From Caldifarciminota bacterium (GTDB taxonomy: Bacteria; Hydrothermota; Tepidihabitantia; SM23-42): a stretch of 53,742 bases of DNA. Below are positions 30,851 to 41,509 of the stretch, piece after piece. Position numbers and translations under genes: made by a program. The stretch is taken from NCBI GenBank assembly GCA_020353055.1, contig CP070686.1, forward strand, positions 165,920 to 219,661. Direction: 5' to 3'. The notes under the pieces are model-generated. The model did no database searches and was not told the DNA's origin. It saw only the letters and a program-made list of their open reading frames with translations. How positions within the stretch are numbered: position 1 is the first letter of the stretch; each line of letters opens with the position of its first letter.

Positions 30851-32126
30851 GAAAACCCGGCAGGATAATAGAATTTTGCATCTGAGCGATAGCGGTGACG
30901 GAGCGCAATCGCGCAAATTCAAGAAAAAAGTGCATGGTTTGCGCCGTGAGATTCTGCGGTTCACTAAGGATTTGATCGGGATCGCTACTGAGAATCCACC
31001 GGGCGCAAAGTATTCCGAGTGCATAGAATTCATATCGGCACGTCTGAAAGACTTCGGCCTGCGGACGCGGATAATCAAGATAAGCAGCCATGGTGATAGG
31101 GCGCATCGACGTTATTGTCTTCTTTCCTCTTACGGTAAGGGAAAAAAGAAACTCTATTTTCACGCTCATTACGATGTGGTGCCGGGAACTGACGCAAAAC
31201 ACTTTAAGCCATACATCCGGGGAAACAAACTCTACGGGCGCGGTGCCGCGGATATGAAAGGAGGTCTTGCCGCAATGGTGTATGCGGTGCGGGCGGTGCA
31301 GCTTCTGAATGCCGAGCTGGACGGTCAGATATGTCTGGTAATCGTCCCGGATGAAGAAACCGGCGGGAAAGCGGGTTCTGGTCATCTTTTTGAAAGGGGG
31401 TACATCAAGAAGGAAGATGGTATTGGCATGCTCATGCCGGAACCGACGAGCGGCACGATTTGGAATGCGTGCCGCGGCGCGCTCAGCTTGTCGGTGAAGA
31501 TAAGAGGCAAGCCGGTTCACGTGGTACTGCATAAAGACGGTGTTAATGCATTTGAACAGATGGTGAGTTTATCGGCGGCATTGCTCAAGTACAAAAAGAC
31601 AGTCGAAAGGAGAAAAACGAAATACGCGGTTCTACCCGGCGAATCGAGGAATTCAATACTCATGTTAGGAGGGCTCTGTCAATGCGGTACGAATTTCAAT
31701 GTTGTTCCGGGTGTTTGTAAGTTTACCATTGAAAGAAGGATCAATCCGGAAGAGAATTTTGCACGACAGAAGAGGCGTTTGTTGGCAATTTTTGACCGGT
31801 TCCGGCAGACTGGGATGAAGATCGATCTTGAGATTCTTCAGGAAGGTGAGTCGGCTGGCGTTTCTCCTGACAGTGCTCTGGCGCGAGTTCTCGTGCGCAG
31901 TGTGGGTGATGTAACGGGTCAACGTCCAAGGTTCAACATGTGCCCGGGATTGCTCGAGATTCGCTACTATCTGCAGAATGGTATACCGGCTTACGCGTAT
32001 GGACCGGGTTTGCTGGCGAAAGCCCATAATCCGGATGAGTTTGTCCAGGTGGAACGTATGATCGATTGCGCTTCCGTATACGGGCTGACCGCGCTCAGAT
32101 TACTTGCGGGAAAGGACGGATCATGA
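30819..32126 (+). CDS. M20 family metallopeptidase (ArgE/DapE/carboxypeptidase type)
   Basis: A 435-residue cytoplasmic di-zinc amidohydrolase. Metal-binding motifs are intact: FHAHYDVVPG, LYGRGAADMKGGLAAMVYAV and PDEETGGKAGSGHL; the dimerisation domain and the final GPGLLAKAHNPDEFVQVE with its His ligand are also present. These enzymes cleave N-acyl groups from amino acids or short peptides; the substrate cannot be read. GTG at 30819 is chosen because a consensus -10 ends 8 bases before it and no Shine-Dalgarno exists. It overlaps the upstream gene by 32 bp and the downstream GNAT by 4 bp (ATGA). Confidence 0.88.
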   Translation: MKRISSKVISKKTRQDNRILHLSDSGDGAQSRKFKKKVHGLRREILRFTKDLIGIATENPPGAKYSECIEFISARLKDFGLRTRIIKISSHGDRAHRRYCLLSSYGKGKKKLYFHAHYDVVPGTDAKHFKPYIRGNKLYGRGAADMKGGLAAMVYAVRAVQLLNAELDGQICLVIVPDEETGGKAGSGHLFERGYIKKEDGIGMLMPEPTSGTIWNACRGALSLSVKIRGKPVHVVLHKDGVNAFEQMVSLSAALLKYKKTVERRKTKYAVLPGESRNSILMLGGLCQCGTNFNVVPGVCKFTIERRINPEENFARQKRRLLAIFDRFRQTGMKIDLEILQEGESAGVSPDSALARVLVRSVGDVTGQRPRFNMCPGLLEIRYYLQNGIPAYAYGPGLLAKAHNPDEFVQVERMIDCASVYGLTALRLLAGKDGS

Positions 32127-32962
32127 TAAGAATAGAACAGATGAACGACTCCGATATCGGCTTCGCAAAATCGCTCACCGATATAGAAGAATGGGGCCAT
32201 GTCGAAGAGGATTTTGAAAGATTGTACTCCCTCGATCCGGCCGGGTGTTACGTTGCGTGGCTCGGTGATGAAAAAGCAGGAATTGTCACAAGTGTCACTT
32301 ACGGTAACCACTCTTTCCTTGGTAACCTGATCGTGCGAAAAGGAATGCGCGGGAGGGGTATTGGGATCGATCTCATGGAAAAAATCATCGGCCATCTCGA
32401 CCGCAAGGGAGTGAAGACGATCGAACTCGACGGTGTACTACGGGCCGTGCAGACCTACCGGATACTGGGTTTCAGGGACAAATATCTTTCCCTGAGGTTT
32501 GCGCGTCCACCACAGGATAACCCCGATGGTGCACAAAAACCGAAGGCAGGATACACTGGGAATATTGAGGAGGTGTTGCGCTTCGATCGTGAAAAGACCG
32601 GTATGGAACGCGGTCTGTTCTTGAGGCATCTACTAGAAAAACACCCGCATACCACATATACCCTGCACCGGCAGAGAATTACAGCCTACGCAGTGATTCG
32701 CGAGAGGGCAACTGGAGGTTTGCATATTGGTCCCATGGTTGCTGAGAACGAGAGTGCCGCCAACGATTTGACCATTTCGATTTGTGCACAACACGGTAGG
32801 AATGAACTGACCATTGGCGTGCCTGGCATCAATGCGGCAGCGTCACAAATGCTCGTGCGGCACGGGTTCCTGCACTGTCCACCGTCCTTGCGGATGTACC
32901 GTGGACAGAGAATAGACTATGAAAGCAATGTCTACGCAATAGTTTCTGCGGACGTAGGTTAA
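32123..32962 (+). CDS. Two-domain GNAT acetyltransferase
   Basis: A 279-residue protein. The ATG at 32123 overlaps the peptidase stop (ATGA) and follows GGAAAGGACGG. The N-terminal GNAT domain (1-130) has the acetyl-CoA loop RGRGIG at residues 76-81 and TYRILGFRDKYLSLRF. The C-terminal part (160-279; HIGPMVAENESAANDLTI, LVRHGFLHCPPSLRMYRG) matches the YitH-type C-terminal acetyltransferase domain pattern. Coupling to an M20 peptidase suggests that the two act on related acylated amines. A weak AATTAC/GTAATT hairpin lies at the stop codon. Confidence 0.85.
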   Translation: MIRIEQMNDSDIGFAKSLTDIEEWGHVEEDFERLYSLDPAGCYVAWLGDEKAGIVTSVTYGNHSFLGNLIVRKGMRGRGIGIDLMEKIIGHLDRKGVKTIELDGVLRAVQTYRILGFRDKYLSLRFARPPQDNPDGAQKPKAGYTGNIEEVLRFDREKTGMERGLFLRHLLEKHPHTTYTLHRQRITAYAVIRERATGGLHIGPMVAENESAANDLTISICAQHGRNELTIGVPGINAAASQMLVRHGFLHCPPSLRMYRGQRIDYESNVYAIVSADVG

Positions 32963-33008: not shown

Positions 33009-33037
33009 TTGACTTCGTGCGTTGGGGGGATTATAAT
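33009..33037 (+). promoter_or_regulatory. Promoter for the MBL-GNAT-GT4-PIG-L unit
   Basis: TTGACT (33009-33014), 17-bp spacer, TATAAT (33032-33037). A GTG lies 5 nt downstream (33043) and opens a 27-codon frame, so the first codon on the RNA may be that GTG. Confidence 0.7.
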
Positions 33038-33144: not shown

Positions 33145-33684
33145 ATGGAATTAAAGAGAATCATTGTCGGTGGTCTCGAGAACAATTGCTACATTCTCAA
33201 ATCAGGAACAACCGGCATCATTGTCGATCCGGGCGATGAGGCGCAGAAGATATTGAATGCGGTTGGTGATTTGAAGATCATGTTGATCCTCGCAACACAC
33301 CGGCACTTCGACCATATAACCGCGCTCCAGCAAGTCAAGAAGGCATTGGAGACACGAGCCGCGATCCATCGCCTGGACTGGGTGTCTGGCTTCGATGAAG
33401 AGCTCGAGGATGGGCAGGTCATCGAATTCGGTCGCGATACATTGAAGGTGCTTCACACGCCGGGTCATACGCCAGGTGGTTGCTGTTTTCTAGTCAATGA
33501 CGTGCTGATTTCTGGCGACACCCTGTTTCCAAATGGTCCAGGCAATACTGCTTTCCCAGGCGGTGATGAAAAGGCTATTCTAAAGAGCATACGCGAAAAA
33601 CTGCTGGTCCTGTCTGATGAAACGGTAGTCTATCCCGGGCACGGCCCGAAAACGACAATCGGTAAGGAAAGGTCGCTATATTGA
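33145..33684 (+). CDS. Metallo-beta-lactamase-fold hydrolase, glyoxalase II-like
   Basis: A 179-residue MBL-fold protein. The metal ligands are at the expected places: THRHFDH (His52, His54, Asp56, His57), HTPGHTPG (His108), SGDTLF (Asp125) and YPGHGPKTTIG (His166). The short length and the final GPKTTIG match small glyoxalase II-like thioester hydrolases. The substrate may be a thiol S-conjugate, but this is not proven. The ATG at 33145 follows AGGA. It opens a run of overlapping genes (GNAT, CelD-like, GT4, PIG-L). Confidence 0.88.
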   Translation: MELKRIIVGGLENNCYILKSGTTGIIVDPGDEAQKILNAVGDLKIMLILATHRHFDHITALQQVKKALETRAAIHRLDWVSGFDEELEDGQVIEFGRDTLKVLHTPGHTPGGCCFLVNDVLISGDTLFPNGPGNTAFPGGDEKAILKSIREKLLVLSDETVVYPGHGPKTTIGKERSLY

Positions 33685-34262
33685 AGATTAAAAGGTTTGA
33701 CGGGCTAACTCTTGTCAATAAGAGGGAAGTACTACGTATGTATGCTTTGAGCCTGAGAATTGAGATCCCCGCTGTCAGACCTTCGATTACCGTAAAATTG
33801 TCTTTTGGCGAAAGACCGTTTGAGGTTGATATGTTAAAGGCTTCCGCTATTGCAGAGCGTGCTGCGCGCGGCGATAAGATTTTCGCCGCCTATCATCAGG
33901 GAATCCCGGTTGCCTATCTCTTTACGACAACCAGAGAATGCCGGGTAGGAGAGATTGATGACTGGCTGGAGGTGAAACCGAATGAGGTGTATCTCTACGA
34001 TGCCTATACGCGCCCCAGTTTTCGTGGCAAGAGGATTTATCCGTTCCTGATAACAAAGGTGGCAGAATATTACAGGAACGAAGCATTTGATTACGCGATG
34101 ATTTTTTCTACTGAAAATAACGCAAGTTCAAATAAGGGAATCGAGCGGTGTGGTTTCAATATCTATGAAACGGTTTACTACCGTAATTTCCTTGGTTGGA
34201 AATCGTGGCAAACAAAAATAGGGGAAAGGCATGTCGGCTCACGCCTGCGTATTGAAGACTGA
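33681..34262 (+). CDS. GNAT-like acetyltransferase
   Basis: A 193-residue protein that starts at a TTG overlapping the MBL stop (TTGA). The fold is GNAT-like: a central PNEVYLYDAYTRPSFRGKRIYPFLI with the acetyl-CoA loop reduced to RGKRIY (115-120), then DYAMIFSTENNASSNKGIERCGFN. This form is common among acetyltransferases next to exopolysaccharide or glycan genes. The next gene starts 32 bp before its end. The acceptor is unknown. Confidence 0.75.
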   Translation: MKIKRFDGLTLVNKREVLRMYALSLRIEIPAVRPSITVKLSFGERPFEVDMLKASAIAERAARGDKIFAAYHQGIPVAYLFTTTRECRVGEIDDWLEVKPNEVYLYDAYTRPSFRGKRIYPFLITKVAEYYRNEAFDYAMIFSTENNASSNKGIERCGFNIYETVYYRNFLGWKSWQTKIGERHVGSRLRIED

Positions 34263-35172
34263 ACGGCTTTCTGCGCTGGAAAATGTGTGGAAAGATTTGT
34301 TCGATAGCATTCGCACCCTATCGCCTTTTATGAGTTACGAGTGGTTCTATGTGCTGGCGAGACATTTATTGAAATCCGACCCGGAAATACTGGTATTTCG
34401 CAAGAAAGGCGGCACCGTGGTAGGAATAATTGCTGCGACGGTTGTCCGTGAAAGAGTCGAATTAGTGGGTGATGAACGGGTTACCGACCTGAACGGATTG
34501 CTCTGTGTGCCAGGTTACGAGAAAGAGGTTACAGAGACTTTTGCCGAATTCGTACGACAGAGAGACTTGGGGCTCGATTTGTTCCCACTGGAAGCGGACA
34601 GCATGCTGGTGGCTGGATTGAAAGACCAGATGCCTGAGGTTTCTGTCGAAAAAAAGGACCTCTGTCCCTTGCTCGATCTACCTCGAACATGGGATGATTA
34701 CCTCGGGAACCTTGACGGCAAGTCGCGTCATGAATTGCGGCGCAAGATGAGGAAAATAAACGGTACGGTCATTCAGGATGTCAAAAGTGTGGGTATCGAG
34801 GATTTATTTAGATTAATGACTGTATCAGATAGTAATAAGGAAAGATTTCTTACGCCCGGCATTCTGGCGTTTTTCAAAGATTTGACAGAAACGTTTGGTC
34901 GAAAAGATTGGCTGCGTATGCGCGCCTTGGCTGCCGACAAGCAGACGGTCGGCATGATATTAGCGTTCGCATTGAGAGAACGTATCTACCTTTACAATAT
35001 GGGATTCGACCCCGAGTACCGTAGTATCTCGCCTGGGATCATGACCATCGCGCTCGATATTCAGTCGGCAATTAACGAAGGTTACGATTATTATGATTTT
35101 CTGCGAGGTGATGAAGATTACAAGTATCGTTTGGGCGCAAAGGAGCGCTACACGATGAGGATCAAGCGATGA
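34231..35172 (+). CDS. CelD/BcsL-like GNAT protein
   Basis: A 313-residue protein with two tandem GNAT-like halves: SPFMSYEWFYVLARHLL near the start, KSRHELRRKMRKI in the linker, and IYLYNMGFDPEYRSISPGIMTIALDIQSAINEGYDYYDFLRGDEDYKYRLG near the end. These are hallmarks of the CelD/BcsL (FemAB-related) family often found in polysaccharide or glycolipid clusters. The ATG follows GGGGAAAGGC and lies inside the previous gene; its stop overlaps the next start (ATGA). It may transfer an acyl or aminoacyl group onto a sugar amine. Confidence 0.8.
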   Translation: MSAHACVLKTERLSALENVWKDLFDSIRTLSPFMSYEWFYVLARHLLKSDPEILVFRKKGGTVVGIIAATVVRERVELVGDERVTDLNGLLCVPGYEKEVTETFAEFVRQRDLGLDLFPLEADSMLVAGLKDQMPEVSVEKKDLCPLLDLPRTWDDYLGNLDGKSRHELRRKMRKINGTVIQDVKSVGIEDLFRLMTVSDSNKERFLTPGILAFFKDLTETFGRKDWLRMRALAADKQTVGMILAFALRERIYLYNMGFDPEYRSISPGIMTIALDIQSAINEGYDYYDFLRGDEDYKYRLGAKERYTMRIKR

Positions 35173-36236
35173 GGATTTGTGTTGTATCCTATCACTCGTC
35201 ACCGCTGACTCCCGTCGGTTCAGGAAAATCGGGCGGTATGAGCATCGTGATCCGCAGTCTTTACGACCGGCTGGCGCAGTTTGCGGATATTGACATCTTC
35301 GTTCGCGGAGATGCGGGGGTCATAGAAAAAGGACGTCGCGTAAAGGTAATACAAGTAGGGCAGCGTGATACCCGTCGATTCGCGGAGGAAATAATCTGTC
35401 GTCATAACGCTTGTCACTATGACCTCATGCATACTCATTACTGGTCGTCGGGTGTCGTAGGGTTACACGCGAAGCCCGTATTGAAGATCCCCTGGCTTCA
35501 TACGCTGCATACGGTCGAAATACTGAAGACGGTCCGTCAGGACAGGACCAGAATAGAGATCGAAGAAGAGATAATGCGCAGTTGTGATCTTGTAGTATCT
35601 CCGACCAAACAGGAAGCACTGGCGATCAAATCGCTCTATCCGGATGTCAGGGTGATAGCCATACCGCATGGTGTTGATACCCGGCGGTTTACGCCCAGCC
35701 AGAACGGTCACAAGAATATTCTTTTTGTAGGTAGGGTCGATCCGATAAAAGGAATACATTTTTTGATCGATGCATTGAGACATATGAAAAGCGATATCGG
35801 TCTGACCCTCGTCGGTGGGTCACCCAAAGACACGGGTAATTTCAAGAGCGTACAAACCTACGCGGCCGGTTTACCGGTGGATTTCGTGGGTCAGGTGAGA
35901 CATGATAGACTCTCGGAATATTACAGCAAGACGTCGATGCTTGTTGTTCCGTCCCATTATGAATCATTCGGACTCGTGGGGTTAGAAGCCATGGCTTCTG
36001 GCCGCCCTGTGGTGGGTTTTTCCCATACTGGCTTGCAGGAGACCGTCGGTGATGATGCCGGTATTCTTGTTAAGATGGGCGCGCGCAGCCTCGCCGGTGC
36101 GATTGAGATTCTTTCACGGGGATATGAACTGCGACAGAGAATGGGAATCATTGGTAGGAAAAAAGCGCTGGCTTTTGACTGGTCGCACATCGCGAATAAA
36201 TATAAAACAACATATGAAAGGATCATCGAGAAGTAG
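35169..36236 (+). CDS. GT4 family glycosyltransferase, MshA-like
   Basis: A 355-residue GT-B retaining glycosyltransferase. Near the N-terminus, YHSSPLTPVGSGKSGGMSIVI and HTHYWSSG (88-95) match the MshA/sucrose-phosphate-synthase branch of GT4, which includes the enzyme that makes GlcNAc-inositol-phosphate for mycothiol. GRVDPIKG (188-195) and the EX7E motif (Glu265, Glu273 in HYESFGLVGLEAM) form the nucleotide-sugar site. The start overlaps the CelD-like stop (ATGA), and the end overlaps the PIG-L deacetylase by 23 bp. Donor and acceptor are not determined. Confidence 0.85.
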   Translation: MRICVVSYHSSPLTPVGSGKSGGMSIVIRSLYDRLAQFADIDIFVRGDAGVIEKGRRVKVIQVGQRDTRRFAEEIICRHNACHYDLMHTHYWSSGVVGLHAKPVLKIPWLHTLHTVEILKTVRQDRTRIEIEEEIMRSCDLVVSPTKQEALAIKSLYPDVRVIAIPHGVDTRRFTPSQNGHKNILFVGRVDPIKGIHFLIDALRHMKSDIGLTLVGGSPKDTGNFKSVQTYAAGLPVDFVGQVRHDRLSEYYSKTSMLVVPSHYESFGLVGLEAMASGRPVVGFSHTGLQETVGDDAGILVKMGARSLAGAIEILSRGYELRQRMGIIGRKKALAFDWSHIANKYKTTYERIIEK

Positions 36237-36891
36237 GCTCATCATAATGGCTCATCCTGATGACCCGGAACTTTCCTGTGGCGGGAGCATCGCGGTATGG
36301 GCAAAGAAGGACAGGGTATATAACGTAATTGTATCGTGCGGTGAAAAGGGAACCTGGGACAGGAAGGCTTCCCCGCTTCTGGTTGCCGAAGAGAGGGAAA
36401 AGGAAGCCAAAGAGGCTGCTCAATACCTCGGCGTGAAGCGAGTTATTTTCCTTCGTCACCCGGATGGTGAACTATCCAGCATCAAGACACTCAAACTCGA
36501 ACTTGCCGCACTCATCAGGAGGCTCAAGCCTTACACGATAGTTACCCATGATCCTTGGTCACGTTACTTCCATCCCGACCACCGGGCTACGGCACACGCC
36601 GTTATTGAAGGCATCATGATCGCGCGGGACTGGCATTTCTACCCGTTTCTGCTGGAGATCGGTCTGAAACCTCACCGTCCTAAGGAACTGCTACTGGGTA
36701 TTACCGAGAAAGCTAACTACGTGGTCGACATTACGAAGACATGCGATAAAAAGATTAAGGCGATCGGCATGCACCGCAGCCAGTTAGGTCAGTTGCCGGA
36801 CTGGCAGAAGCGGGTGTGTAACCGTGTTAAAAATGATGGTGCTTCGGCCGGTTACAAATTCGGTGAGGGTTTTTACAAGATGCACGTATGA
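36214..36891 (+). CDS. PIG-L family (LmbE-like) N-acetyl-sugar deacetylase
   Basis: A 225-residue zinc deacetylase. MAHPDDPELSCGGS (His14, Asp16, Asp17) and FHPDHRAT (His120, His123) give the zinc site and catalytic Asp of the PIG-L/MshB/BshB family, which removes acetate from N-acetylglucosaminyl compounds. The ATG at 36214 is inside the GT4 3' end; the longer frame upstream is shadow. Next to a GT4 of the MshA branch, the natural reading is deacetylation of the GT4 product. Last gene of the overlapping run. Confidence 0.88.
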   Translation: MKGSSRSRLIIMAHPDDPELSCGGSIAVWAKKDRVYNVIVSCGEKGTWDRKASPLLVAEEREKEAKEAAQYLGVKRVIFLRHPDGELSSIKTLKLELAALIRRLKPYTIVTHDPWSRYFHPDHRATAHAVIEGIMIARDWHFYPFLLEIGLKPHRPKELLLGITEKANYVVDITKTCDKKIKAIGMHRSQLGQLPDWQKRVCNRVKNDGASAGYKFGEGFYKMHV

Positions 36892-36937: not shown

Positions 36938-37888
36938 GTGGCATCCCACGAGCATAATCATAAACATGGTTTCTCCGAGCGGATCTTTGAGTTCCGTAAC
37001 GTAGAAAAGAAGAAGCTTAGCCTTTCGCTGATCATCACTGCCGTGGTTATGGTGATTGAGATCGTCGGCGGCATACTCTCACACAGTATCGCTCTGATCA
37101 GCGATGCCGGTCACATGTTCACCCATGCGTTCGCGATAACGATCAGTTTGATCGCGATCATCATTGCAGCGCGTCCGCCGTGTCATCACCGAACATTCGG
37201 TTTGTATCGCGCGGAGATACTCGCGGCGTTTATAAACGGGCTCTTTTTACTGGCGGTCGGTGGTTTGATTATATACGAAGCAATTGAGAGGATCATCCGT
37301 CCGGAAGATGTACTGGCTCTCGACATGCTGCTCATTGCACTTCTCGGTCTGGTCGTTAATATCATCAGTATCTTTATACTACATGGCAGTCACAAACGTA
37401 ACATAAATATCAAAGGTGTCTTCTACCATATGATCGCCGATGCTGCATCATCAGTGGGTATCGTGGTTGCGGCCGTTATCATATACTACACAAAATGGAA
37501 CATAATCGACCCGATCGTAAGCATCGGTATTTCATTGGTGATCGTTTTCTGGGCTTGGGGTATTTTGAAGGAATCGGCAAAAATCTTGCTTGAAATGGCG
37601 CCTACCGGATTGAACGTCGACGTTGTCATGGAGGATTTAAAAAACAAATTTCCTGAGATCAAACAGTTGGAGCACGCACATCTCTGGACGATCACCGCGG
37701 ACATGCTGGTCTTTTCTGCTCACATCTTGTTGGACGATACGTATCAGAGCGCCGAGGCGCAGAATCGTCTAATATCGGATATCAACAGTTATTTGGCGAG
37801 TAGGTACCACATCATCGAATCCACAATTCAGATTCTATGTGAGGGAGATTCAGCAACCTGTCCGCTGATCCCGGAGCCTCCTAACTGA
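36938..37888 (+). CDS. Cation diffusion facilitator (CDF) metal exporter
   Basis: A 316-residue inner-membrane transporter with six predicted membrane helices and a His-rich N-terminus (HEHNHKHGF). SDAGHMFTHAF at about 55-65 is the TM2 metal site; the usual zinc-type H-x3-D reads H-x3-H here. The TM5 site HMIADAASS keeps H-x3-D. The C-terminal cytoplasmic domain (about 225-300) is present. The GTG at 36938 follows a -10 by 5 nt without Shine-Dalgarno. The ZIP gene begins one base after its stop, so an exporter and a ZIP-type transporter are made together. Confidence 0.9.
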   Translation: MASHEHNHKHGFSERIFEFRNVEKKKLSLSLIITAVVMVIEIVGGILSHSIALISDAGHMFTHAFAITISLIAIIIAARPPCHHRTFGLYRAEILAAFINGLFLLAVGGLIIYEAIERIIRPEDVLALDMLLIALLGLVVNIISIFILHGSHKRNINIKGVFYHMIADAASSVGIVVAAVIIYYTKWNIIDPIVSIGISLVIVFWAWGILKESAKILLEMAPTGLNVDVVMEDLKNKFPEIKQLEHAHLWTITADMLVFSAHILLDDTYQSAEAQNRLISDINSYLASRYHIIESTIQILCEGDSATCPLIPEPPN

Positions 37889-37889
37889 T

Positions 37890-38633
37890 ATGGTTTTCGC
37901 TTTCACCCTTGGGAGTGTGGTCCTGGTCAGTTTGCTATCCTTGGCCGGTATACTAACCCTGTCCATTAACCGCCGACGGCTGCAGAAGACGTTGATATTT
38001 CTTGTAGCATTTGCCGTTGGTGCCCTGTTTGGTGATGTCTTTATCCACCTGCTACCCGAATCTTTCGAGAAGGTAGGCGTGAACCTGACTACCTCGCTTT
38101 TGGTGATCGGCGGCTTCTTGATCTTTTTTGTTCTGGAAAAATTCATTCGGTGGCGTCATATTGGCAGCGCGGCGCACCGGAAACAGATAAGCCCCGTTGT
38201 GACCATGAATCTGGTGGGTGACGCGGCGCATAACCTGATTGACGGGATGCTCATTGCGGCGAGTTTCATGGTGAGTATTCCAATAGGGATAACAACGACG
38301 CTCGCGATCGTGCTCCACGAGATACCACAGGAGATCGGCGATTTCAGCATTCTCATCCATGGCGGTTTGTCAGTTAAGAGAGCGCTGTCATTTAATTTAC
38401 TTGCCTCACTGATGGCGGTTCTTGGCGCAGTTGTAACGTTGCTGATCGGCAAGCAGTTTCAGAGCTTTGCATCGTTTTTGCTGCCGGTCACGGCGGGAGG
38501 TTTTATCTACATTGCCGGCCCGGATCTGATCCCGGAACTTCAACAGGATGTGAAGGTGTCAAATTCAATATGGCAGTTCTCGGCAATTCTCCTCGGGGTC
38601 ATTATCATGGCGCTGTTGACTTTTCTGGAATAG
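37890..38633 (+). CDS. ZIP family metal transporter
   Basis: A 247-residue membrane protein with about eight helices. The metal-binding helices read GDAAHNLIDGMLIAASF (H-N-x2-D-G) and LHEIPQEIGDFSIL (H-E-x2-Q-E), the conserved ZIP TM4/TM5 signature. It would move divalent metal, commonly zinc, into the cytoplasm. The loop between helices 3 and 4 is short and not His rich. The ATG at 37890 immediately follows the CDF stop (TGATATG), consistent with one operon. Substrate ion not provable from sequence. Confidence 0.88.
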   Translation: MVFAFTLGSVVLVSLLSLAGILTLSINRRRLQKTLIFLVAFAVGALFGDVFIHLLPESFEKVGVNLTTSLLVIGGFLIFFVLEKFIRWRHIGSAAHRKQISPVVTMNLVGDAAHNLIDGMLIAASFMVSIPIGITTTLAIVLHEIPQEIGDFSILIHGGLSVKRALSFNLLASLMAVLGAVVTLLIGKQFQSFASFLLPVTAGGFIYIAGPDLIPELQQDVKVSNSIWQFSAILLGVIIMALLTFLE

Positions 38634-39832: not shown

Positions 39833-41509
39833 TTATTGCTGCCAGGAGTCCGTCAAAGCCTTCTGGACAATAAGCTTATTCTCAATCAGGTAGTTGTAGG
39901 CGGTGAGCGCTGCCTTGGCACCTTCGCCCGCGGCGATTATGATCTGCTTCTGCGGCAGGTCGGTCGCATCGCCGGCCGCAAAGAAACCCGGCACGGAAGT
40001 GCCGTTGTCTCTGGTAACCGGGATCTCACCTTGTTCGTTGAGCTCTAACATTCCTTTCACCGGCGAGGTATTCGGTACGAGACCGATTTCCAGGAATACC
40101 CCGTCGACCCCAATGTCATCCCCTTGCCCGCCGTTTACTGATTGTATCCGGATGGCATTCAGCTTTTTATCGCCAATTATTTCTTTGACGACGGTATTCA
40201 TGTGGACGGTGACGTTTTTCGCGCTGGTGACTTCTTTAACCAGTTCACGATCGGCTCTGAACTTATCCCGCCGGTGGATCAAATGTATCTCAGAAGCGAA
40301 ACTCAGCAGGTCCCTTGCTGATGTGAAAGCAGAATTTCCGCCGCCCACGACCGCAACTTTCTTGCCTTTATATAAAGGCGCATCGCACGTCGCGCAGAAA
40401 GCAACACCGTGTCCCATGAAGCGATCTTCGCCGGGGACACCCAGCTTGCGGTATTGCTTGCCTGCACAATAGATGACGGATTTGCCATTGTAGTATTTCT
40501 TGTCTTCGGTTATCACGGTAAAGACATTATCCTTTTTTTCAATCTTCACCACGGCGGCACCAAGCGCCTCGGCAACAGAAAATAATTCCATGTGCGTGAC
40601 AAACTGCTCAACCATTTCCTTACCATCTATGTTGGGTAGGCCGAGATAATTCTCGACGAGCGCCGTGTAGTTGATCTGGCCTCCGAGGTCCTTTGCCAGA
40701 AGCAGCACATCGAGCGCTTTGCGCGCGGCGTATACCGCCGCCGACATGGCTGCGGTTCCGCCGCCCACGATGATGACGTCGTACTCGTGCTCACTTTCTG
40801 CTTTCCGCACATGACGGTGACCGTGAGCTTCCCTGATGGCTTGTTCAATACGCTTGTATTCCTCGGGGTTGACCGCCTTTAGTACTTCGAGGTATACGCG
40901 ATCCACAGGTAAGGCACCGACGAAAGAGTGCGTTTCGTTAATTATGGTTTTGGGTGTACCCGTGACATCATAGCGTTGAGCAAGTTGGGGGAATTCAGCA
41001 ATTTCTACCATGTCGGCGCGTATGCTGTCACCAACCATAGCGAGCTGCATTGCCGCATGTACGGCACGCGGGCAATACGGACAGGTCAGGGTCGTCATCA
41101 CCTCGATATGTACAGGATGGTTAATGTGGCGTATCATTTCTTCGAATTCACCGGAGATGCCGGATTTGCCGGTTGCGACAATGACGATGGCTTCGATCAG
41201 CGATTGAAATTCATATCCGCTGGTCAATCCATAAAAACGTATGCCATAGTCCTTCTTCCCGATGACTGCGGTTGCAGGTATTTTATCGATGTTATACTTT
41301 ATGACTTTATCGCTGTCACGCACGAAGTCGAAAATCTTCAATTCGATCTTATTGGTGTGTTTGACAATTTCTTCGAGCACGCGTTGTTGATTCCTGCACG
41401 CAGGACAAGCATTCTCCTGAGTAAAATAGAGCACTTCAACGCGGTTGGGAAGTTTCCCGAGTACACGCTTCAAGTCCTTACTTGTTTTGTCATCCATCAA
41501 GTCAGGCAT
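39833..41509 (-). CDS. Fusion of two thioredoxin folds with a thioredoxin reductase
   Basis: A 558-residue flavoprotein. Residues 1-215 contain two thioredoxin-like folds with CPAC (Cys35, Cys38) and CPYC (Cys143, Cys146), the arrangement of archaeal/thermophile protein disulfide oxidoreductase (PDO). Residues 240-550 are a thioredoxin reductase: FAD motif IIVGGGTAAMSAA, redox-active CATC (Cys372, Cys375), NADPH site VAVVGGGNSAF and GFFAAGDAT. AhpF has a comparable order, but there the first fold lacks the CxxC. It should be a one-chain NAD(P)H-to-disulfide relay. The ATG at 41509 is 5 nt after TATAAT: leaderless. Confidence 0.88.
   Translation of the reverse strand: MPDLMDDKTSKDLKRVLGKLPNRVEVLYFTQENACPACRNQQRVLEEIVKHTNKIELKIFDFVRDSDKVIKYNIDKIPATAVIGKKDYGIRFYGLTSGYEFQSLIEAIVIVATGKSGISGEFEEMIRHINHPVHIEVMTTLTCPYCPRAVHAAMQLAMVGDSIRADMVEIAEFPQLAQRYDVTGTPKTIINETHSFVGALPVDRVYLEVLKAVNPEEYKRIEQAIREAHGHRHVRKAESEHEYDVIIVGGGTAAMSAAVYAARKALDVLLLAKDLGGQINYTALVENYLGLPNIDGKEMVEQFVTHMELFSVAEALGAAVVKIEKKDNVFTVITEDKKYYNGKSVIYCAGKQYRKLGVPGEDRFMGHGVAFCATCDAPLYKGKKVAVVGGGNSAFTSARDLLSFASEIHLIHRRDKFRADRELVKEVTSAKNVTVHMNTVVKEIIGDKKLNAIRIQSVNGGQGDDIGVDGVFLEIGLVPNTSPVKGMLELNEQGEIPVTRDNGTSVPGFFAAGDATDLPQKQIIIAAGEGAKAALTAYNYLIENKLIVQKALTDSWQQ

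Follow-up and report, generated by a model that had tools for sequence, protein, structure and literature searches.

A five-gene operon conserved within WOR-3

The window analysed here is a stretch of 53,742 nucleotides from the complete, 2.69 Mb genome of a bacterium of candidate phylum WOR-3 (G000). On its forward strand it carries an operon of five overlapping genes, hereafter the cassette, with the following features:

33009-33037 (+): sigma-70-type promoter of the operon, TTGACT-N17-TATAAT, 11/12 consensus positions
33145-33684 (+): metallo-beta-lactamase (MBL) fold hydrolase, type-II glyoxalase-II-like; PF00753 (Lactamase_B), 1e-25; HxHxDH site intact
33681-34262 (+): single-domain GNAT; TTG start; PF00583 (Acetyltransf_1), 1.1e-6; AlphaFold2 (AF2) model with pLDDT 86
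34231-35172 (+): CelD-like double-GNAT protein; PF13480 (Acetyltransf_6/CelD), 7.8e-25
35169-36236 (+): family 4 glycosyltransferase (GT4) of the MshA/sucrose-phosphate synthase (SPS) branch; Glycos_transf_1, 1.6e-30; best NCBIfam family MshA
36214-36891 (+): PIG-L family de-N-acetylase; PF02585, 1.2e-29; HPDD and HPDH motifs intact

From MBL to PIG-L, consecutive genes overlap by 4, 32, 4 and 23 bp. The positions of the open reading frames (ORFs) and the family matches thus confirm the run of five genes with overlaps of 4-32 bp that had been described in an original prediction on this DNA. The PIG-L frame can also be read from a GTG (36049-36891), but the ATG at 36214 agrees with the orthologues. 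The promoter hexamers are aligned in 8/8 congeners, while the remaining intergenic bases diverge.

Among 147 WOR-3 genomes, orthologues of the cassette PIG-L (56-86% identity) were present in 20, and were set apart from other PIG-L proteins (next 47%, then ≤37%, save one short fragment). In an alignment the MBL protein is 52-83% identical to its orthologues. All five genes lie together and in the same order in 7/7 congeners, as well as in other genera and families of WOR-3 where both flanks are different (L053-L056, L059, L061-L063); the cassette of L064 has no GNAT, and that of L058 ends at a contig end. The possession of its own conserved promoter, together with a gene order that is kept while the flanks change, indicates that the cassette is a real unit and that its gene order is not due to chance. 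Apparently decayed or broken forms were also seen (L060, 2441-4706; L057, 7133-9160), in which CelD is truncated and the GNAT or GT4 is missing, with PIG-L intact. Viral contigs yielded distant PIG-L relatives only, and the cassette was not found in them.

Family and fold assignments

The GT4 had been placed by motif in the MshA/SPS branch, and this is borne out by database matches, by the acceptor-site alignment and by a tree. Its best NCBIfam family is MshA (163 bits, next family 107), below the cut-off of 462, and related cassette GT4s from Chloroflexota, described below, reach 335-393 bits against the same model and cut-off (next family ≤142). The match to the BshA model is 72 bits, below its cut-off of 273.7. 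By sequence, its closest relatives in the PDB are the SPS Tll1590 (218 bits) and Corynebacterium glutamicum MshA (203 bits). In a quick tree, without bootstrap and with several weak branches, the cassette GT4s group with MshA and SPS, apart from BshA and other GT4s; a phylogeny against MshA and BshA was one of the checks that had been suggested.

Residues equivalent to MshA Y110, H133, T134, K139 and R154 are identical in 44/44 cassette GT4s aligned, and as a set are not kept in BshA or in paralogues. We take Y110, T134 and R154, with K78, to be the residues that hold the phosphate of inositol-1-phosphate in the MshA structure. The loop with Lys78 is missing in the WOR-3 cassette GT4s and retained by most of those from Chloroflexota. 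We propose that the GT4 is a putative N-acetylglucosamine (GlcNAc) transferase acting on a phosphorylated polyol. Inositol-1-phosphate synthase (PF01658) is encoded in G000, in 140/147 WOR-3 genomes and in 233/245 genomes of Dehalococcoidia. In one Dehalococcoidia genome (G286) its gene lies about 3 kb from MBL-CelD-GT4 (L203, 3399-4472, minus strand).

The likeness of the PIG-L protein to MshB and BshB, also part of the original prediction, found no support in that form: by sequence the protein is nearer to archaeal diacetylchitobiose deacetylase (Dac; 151 bits in the PDB) than to BshB (75) or MshB (45). Its best NCBIfam family is BshB1, at 95 bits (cut-off 182), and the MshB model gives 39 bits (cut-off 224). 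The MBL protein is short, with 7ev5, 7l0b and 2xf4 as best PDB matches. A Foldseek search with the model of the WOR-3 single GNAT retrieved tandem GNATs at modest scores, MshD (1ozp) being third with an E-value of 8.9e-6; we propose the single GNAT as a candidate N-acyltransferase on an aminoacyl amine. PDB sequence searches with the CelD and GNAT profiles gave no significant match.

Genome searches agree with the earlier observation that no MshC- or BshC-like ligase accompanies these genes. Nothing exceeded the MshC cut-off in the 11 genomes tested, and in G000 the match to the MshC model is its single intact cysteinyl-tRNA synthetase, of 495 residues (a TGA first suspected within it was then placed outside the ORF). 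BshC was found in 2/147 WOR-3 genomes (G036 and G037) and is absent from every cassette genome. In G036 and G037 (L213, L214) BshA and BshC score over cut-off and the cassette is absent, and these members of the same phylum probably carry the bacillithiol pathway; BshC-bearing WOR-3 genomes encode about four DinB-type proteins each.

It had been suggested that the CelD-like protein could supply the missing aminoacyl transfer, and structure prediction, likewise proposed as a check, produced a confident AF2 model (pLDDT 93.8, pTM 0.90) whose nearest solved folds are aminoacyl-tRNA-dependent. The best Foldseek match is Sbb17 (E 9.7e-13), found with Sba18; both are aminoacyl-tRNA-dependent and were solved with streptothrisamine. 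Ranks 1-8 are all occupied by enzymes of this kind (Sbb17, Sba18, FemX), and FemA and MprF/A-PGS are also present, ahead of most CoA-dependent GNATs; the acetyltransferase VipF is at rank 12 (E 6.4e-10). FemX-type enzymes are double-GNAT proteins with a charged helix for tRNA in domain 2 and a catalytic lysine, which is Lys305 in FemX and Lys329, beside Phe328, in DhpH-C (PMC12945691). The CelD-like protein has a charged helix at residues 163-174 (GKSRHELRRKMR), and its K298, within a DYK motif (Y-K), does not vary across 46 sequences of WOR-3 and Chloroflexota, nor do R166, E168, R171, K172, K203, N256 and E295. K298 may correspond to FemX Lys305. We propose that the protein is a putative aminoacyl-tRNA-dependent ligase acting on a glucosamine amine.

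A scan with the PIG-L profile revealed CelD-GT4-PIG-L, in the same order, in the Chloroflexota contigs L082, L091 and L096. In Dehalococcoidia, the class of L091, CelD homologues at E≤1e-20 occur in 161/245 genomes. Among 20 regions picked across a wide score range, two of which (L202 and L203) run into the end of their contig, CelD-GT4 was present in 18 and CelD-GT4-PIG-L, in that order, in 14. Two layouts recur, namely GTP cyclohydrolase I (GCHI)-CelD-GT4-PIG-L and MBL-CelD-GT4-tandem GNAT-PIG-L. The tandem GNAT lies beside the GT4 in seven of the 20 regions and in L082, and most such loci also have the MBL gene. Its best NCBIfam family is MshD, at 85-114 bits and under the cut-off of 163 (five scanned of eight), and a profile of all eight sequences has MshD (2c27/1ozp) as best PDB match, in a near tie with 3tt2, an uncharacterised Sphaerobacter GNAT. 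With the MBL and the MshD-like tandem GNAT in these loci, the five activities of the WOR-3 operon recur in a second phylum, only distantly related to the first.

A possible pathway and its alternatives

Our proposal, to which we give a probability of roughly 0.48, is that the product of the operon is a small conjugate of the aminoacyl-glucosaminyl-polyol type, analogous to mycothiol and bacillithiol. With UDP-GlcNAc as donor, the GT4 would attach GlcNAc to a phosphorylated polyol, inositol-1-phosphate being the simplest candidate; once the phosphate is lost, PIG-L would strip the N-acetyl group and free the amine of glucosamine. The CelD-like, FemX-fold ligase, in the role of MshC or BshC, would aminoacylate this amine, probably with cysteine supplied by Cys-tRNA. 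The GNAT would then acetylate the new alpha-amine, as MshD does, and the MBL protein would hydrolyse conjugates of the product (thioesters or others), just as glyoxalase II acts on those of glutathione. The chemistry of every step is our inference, as are the acceptor, the choice of amino acid and what the product is used for. With MshA-like partners and, in Chloroflexota, MshD-like ones, cysteine is the most economical choice for the conjugate. More tentatively, we suggest that a FemX-fold ligase that attaches cysteine from Cys-tRNA to glucosaminyl-inositol, or to a different polyol, could represent a further route to a mycothiol-class thiol, in WOR-3 and in much of Dehalococcoidia.

Mycothiol genes have been reported from Actinobacteria only (PMC6282198), and whether MshC was a one-off solution has been raised as a question (PMC2922099). 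In the literature searched we found no thiol system for WOR-3 or Dehalococcoidia. If the proposal is correct, a mycothiol-like cassette exists in two further phyla and offers a candidate for the thiol of large uncultured groups, whose members would have an unrecognised way of making a protective thiol; a tRNA-dependent ligase replacing MshC would be a second chemistry for the cysteine-glucosamine amide bond. The five genes could be expressed in E. coli, which makes the thiol question testable.

The reading of the run as a thiol or amino-sugar pathway was already part of the original prediction; it gains from the branch of the GT4, the absence of MshC and BshC and the fold of the CelD-like protein, whereas the likeness of PIG-L to MshB and BshB gained no support in the form given. 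Several points weigh against it. No sequence feature names cysteine. The WOR-3 GT4s, without the Lys78 loop and variable at Asn25, may use an acceptor other than inositol phosphate. Nearly every genome of either group encodes inositol-1-phosphate synthase, so that the substrate is supplied but the co-occurrence of this gene with the cassette is uninformative, and we rejected it as support. CelD/Acetyltransf_6 is a broad family that includes polysaccharide-linked proteins, and a double-GNAT fold settles neither the donor nor the amino acid. The WOR-3 single GNAT is only loosely MshD-like and is missing from some cassettes, such as that of L064, and those cassette-bearing WOR-3 genomes that were searched for an MshD-like gene yielded none. 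Of about 20 cassette-bearing WOR-3 genomes, one (G039) encodes DinB-type thiol transferases, and in several Dehalococcoidia loci it is GCHI, and no thiol gene, that lies 5' of the cassette.

DinB or mycothiol-S-transferase-like genes were seen beside two Chloroflexota cassettes, in L082 (1234-1755 and 1877-2563 (-)) and L200 (9623-10150), the assignment coming from a Pfam scan for L082:1877-2563 and from sequence resemblance for the rest. DinB/STL transferases were discarded as support, since they lie beside these two Chloroflexota cassettes only and are not enriched in cassette-bearing WOR-3.

A GT4 and a PIG-L protein carry out the first two steps of glycosylphosphatidylinositol synthesis, and the operon could accordingly be read as making a membrane glycolipid, in which the GT4, like PIG-A, puts GlcNAc on an inositol phospholipid, deacetylation by PIG-L follows and the resulting glucosamine is aminoacylated by the FemX-fold protein, much as MprF acts on phosphatidylglycerol. 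The presence of MprF and A-PGS among the fold matches and weak matches of the window GT4 to GlcN-PG synthase and IagA/BgsA are consistent with this. We consider it unlikely, however, since the GT4 groups with the soluble MshA and SPS, which use small phosphorylated acceptors, and keeps the acceptor-site positions; no recurrent flippase or lipid gene adjoins the cassette in the mapped loci, and the MBL and the MshD-like GNAT would be left without a role. An amino-sugar natural product or signal, carrying an amino acid other than cysteine through tRNA-dependent aminoacylation of the streptothricin type, would suit both the top fold match, Sbb17, which belongs to the streptothricin pathway, and the fact that the sequence does not reveal the amino acid. 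Vertical conservation across a whole genus and about two thirds of Dehalococcoidia better suits a core metabolite, and the MshA-like GT4 and MshD-like GNAT point to a mycothiol scaffold, making this explanation distinctly unlikely.

Exosortase and exopolysaccharide (EPS) loci do contain CelD, FemAB-like, PIG-L and GT4 proteins, and there is a weak match to TIGR03019, but we regard a surface polysaccharide or glycan-modification cassette as very improbable. Among the ORFs of the mapped loci of two phyla, where some neighbours had no family-library scan, no polymerase or flippase was recognised beside the cassette, nor does a chain-length or other recurrent glycosyltransferase gene adjoin it, and the cassette GT4 is not near EPS families. 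With partner genes lacking and the GT4 in the wrong branch, the EPS or lipopolysaccharide (LPS) reading was rejected; a GT4 of the EPS/LPS type next to flippase or polymerase genes, which the original prediction had named as evidence against itself, was looked for and not seen in the loci examined. The position of GCHI directly 5' of CelD in several Dehalococcoidia (L091, L096, L193, L194, L195, L197, L198 and others) could suggest a conjugate of a cofactor, for instance a pterin glycoside, for which GlcNAc-pterins such as limipterin are a precedent. This is scarcely probable, given that GCHI is not beside the cassette in WOR-3 or in the Dehalococcoidia loci with MBL and the MshD-like gene; its occurrence with threonine-synthesis genes in some loci suggests that it may be an unrelated neighbour.

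Around the operon in the window, AlkZ-like, M20 and tandem GNAT (32123-32962) genes lie on the 5' side and are neighbours within the genus alone; the tandem GNAT, present genus-wide, matched no MshD model. On the 3' side, genes for a CDF zinc exporter and a ZIP transporter (36938-38633) start 47 bp from the operon, and in congeners a CDF gene, usually with ZIP, is also found 3', again as a neighbour at genus level only. PIG-L and MBL proteins are metalloenzymes, and low-molecular-weight thiols are able to buffer zinc. Further on (39833-41509, minus strand), a glutaredoxin/protein disulfide oxidoreductase (PDO)-like N-terminus is fused to thioredoxin reductase (AhpF-like, as judged by eye); most congeners keep this possible disulfide reductase close to the operon. 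A gene for an EamA-type transporter adjoins the cassette in several loci (L053, 4230-5126; L054, 11192-12088; L058, 3804-4700; L063, 3887-4771; also G125), lying 3' in several genera of family f1 and 5' in f30. In the phylum it often occurs where the cassette does not (40/147 genomes have it), and in G000 it lies far from the cassette, so that it was left out as a sixth part.

Comparison with known systems

The cassette resembles the mycothiol pathway in its MshA-branch GT4 with the acceptor-site positions, in having PIG-L and GNAT proteins, in the inositol-1-phosphate synthase encoded in the genome and, in part of the Chloroflexota loci, in the MshD-like tandem GNAT. It differs in that its genes are clustered, the GT4 is under the MshA cut-off and in WOR-3 is without the Lys78 loop, PIG-L is nearer to archaeal Dac than to MshB, and a FemX-fold CelD-like protein is present instead of MshC. 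Since neither MshC nor an MshD over cut-off was found in the genomes and cassettes tested, we liken the operon to the mycothiol pathway and do not class it as one. The bacillithiol pathway also has a GT4 followed by PIG-L, and BshB1 is the best NCBIfam family of the cassette PIG-L, but membership was rejected because the GT4 is not BshA, by score and by tree, and BshC occurs in no cassette genome. Archaeal Dac is the nearest solved relative of the cassette PIG-L, which differs in having an MshA-like GT4 and CelD as partners, with no chitin catabolic genes recognised near the cassette.

The CelD-like protein shares with the FemABX/VlmA/Orf11 enzymes, the group of Sbb17 and Sba18, a double-GNAT fold, a charged helix that opens domain 2 and, towards the C-terminus, an aromatic-Lys motif whose lysine is invariant. 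It belongs to the CelD/Acetyltransf_6 family, at 12-14% identity to these enzymes, and its partners are MshA-like and PIG-L proteins. The substrate of Sbb17 and Sba18 is an amino sugar, as we propose for the CelD-like protein.

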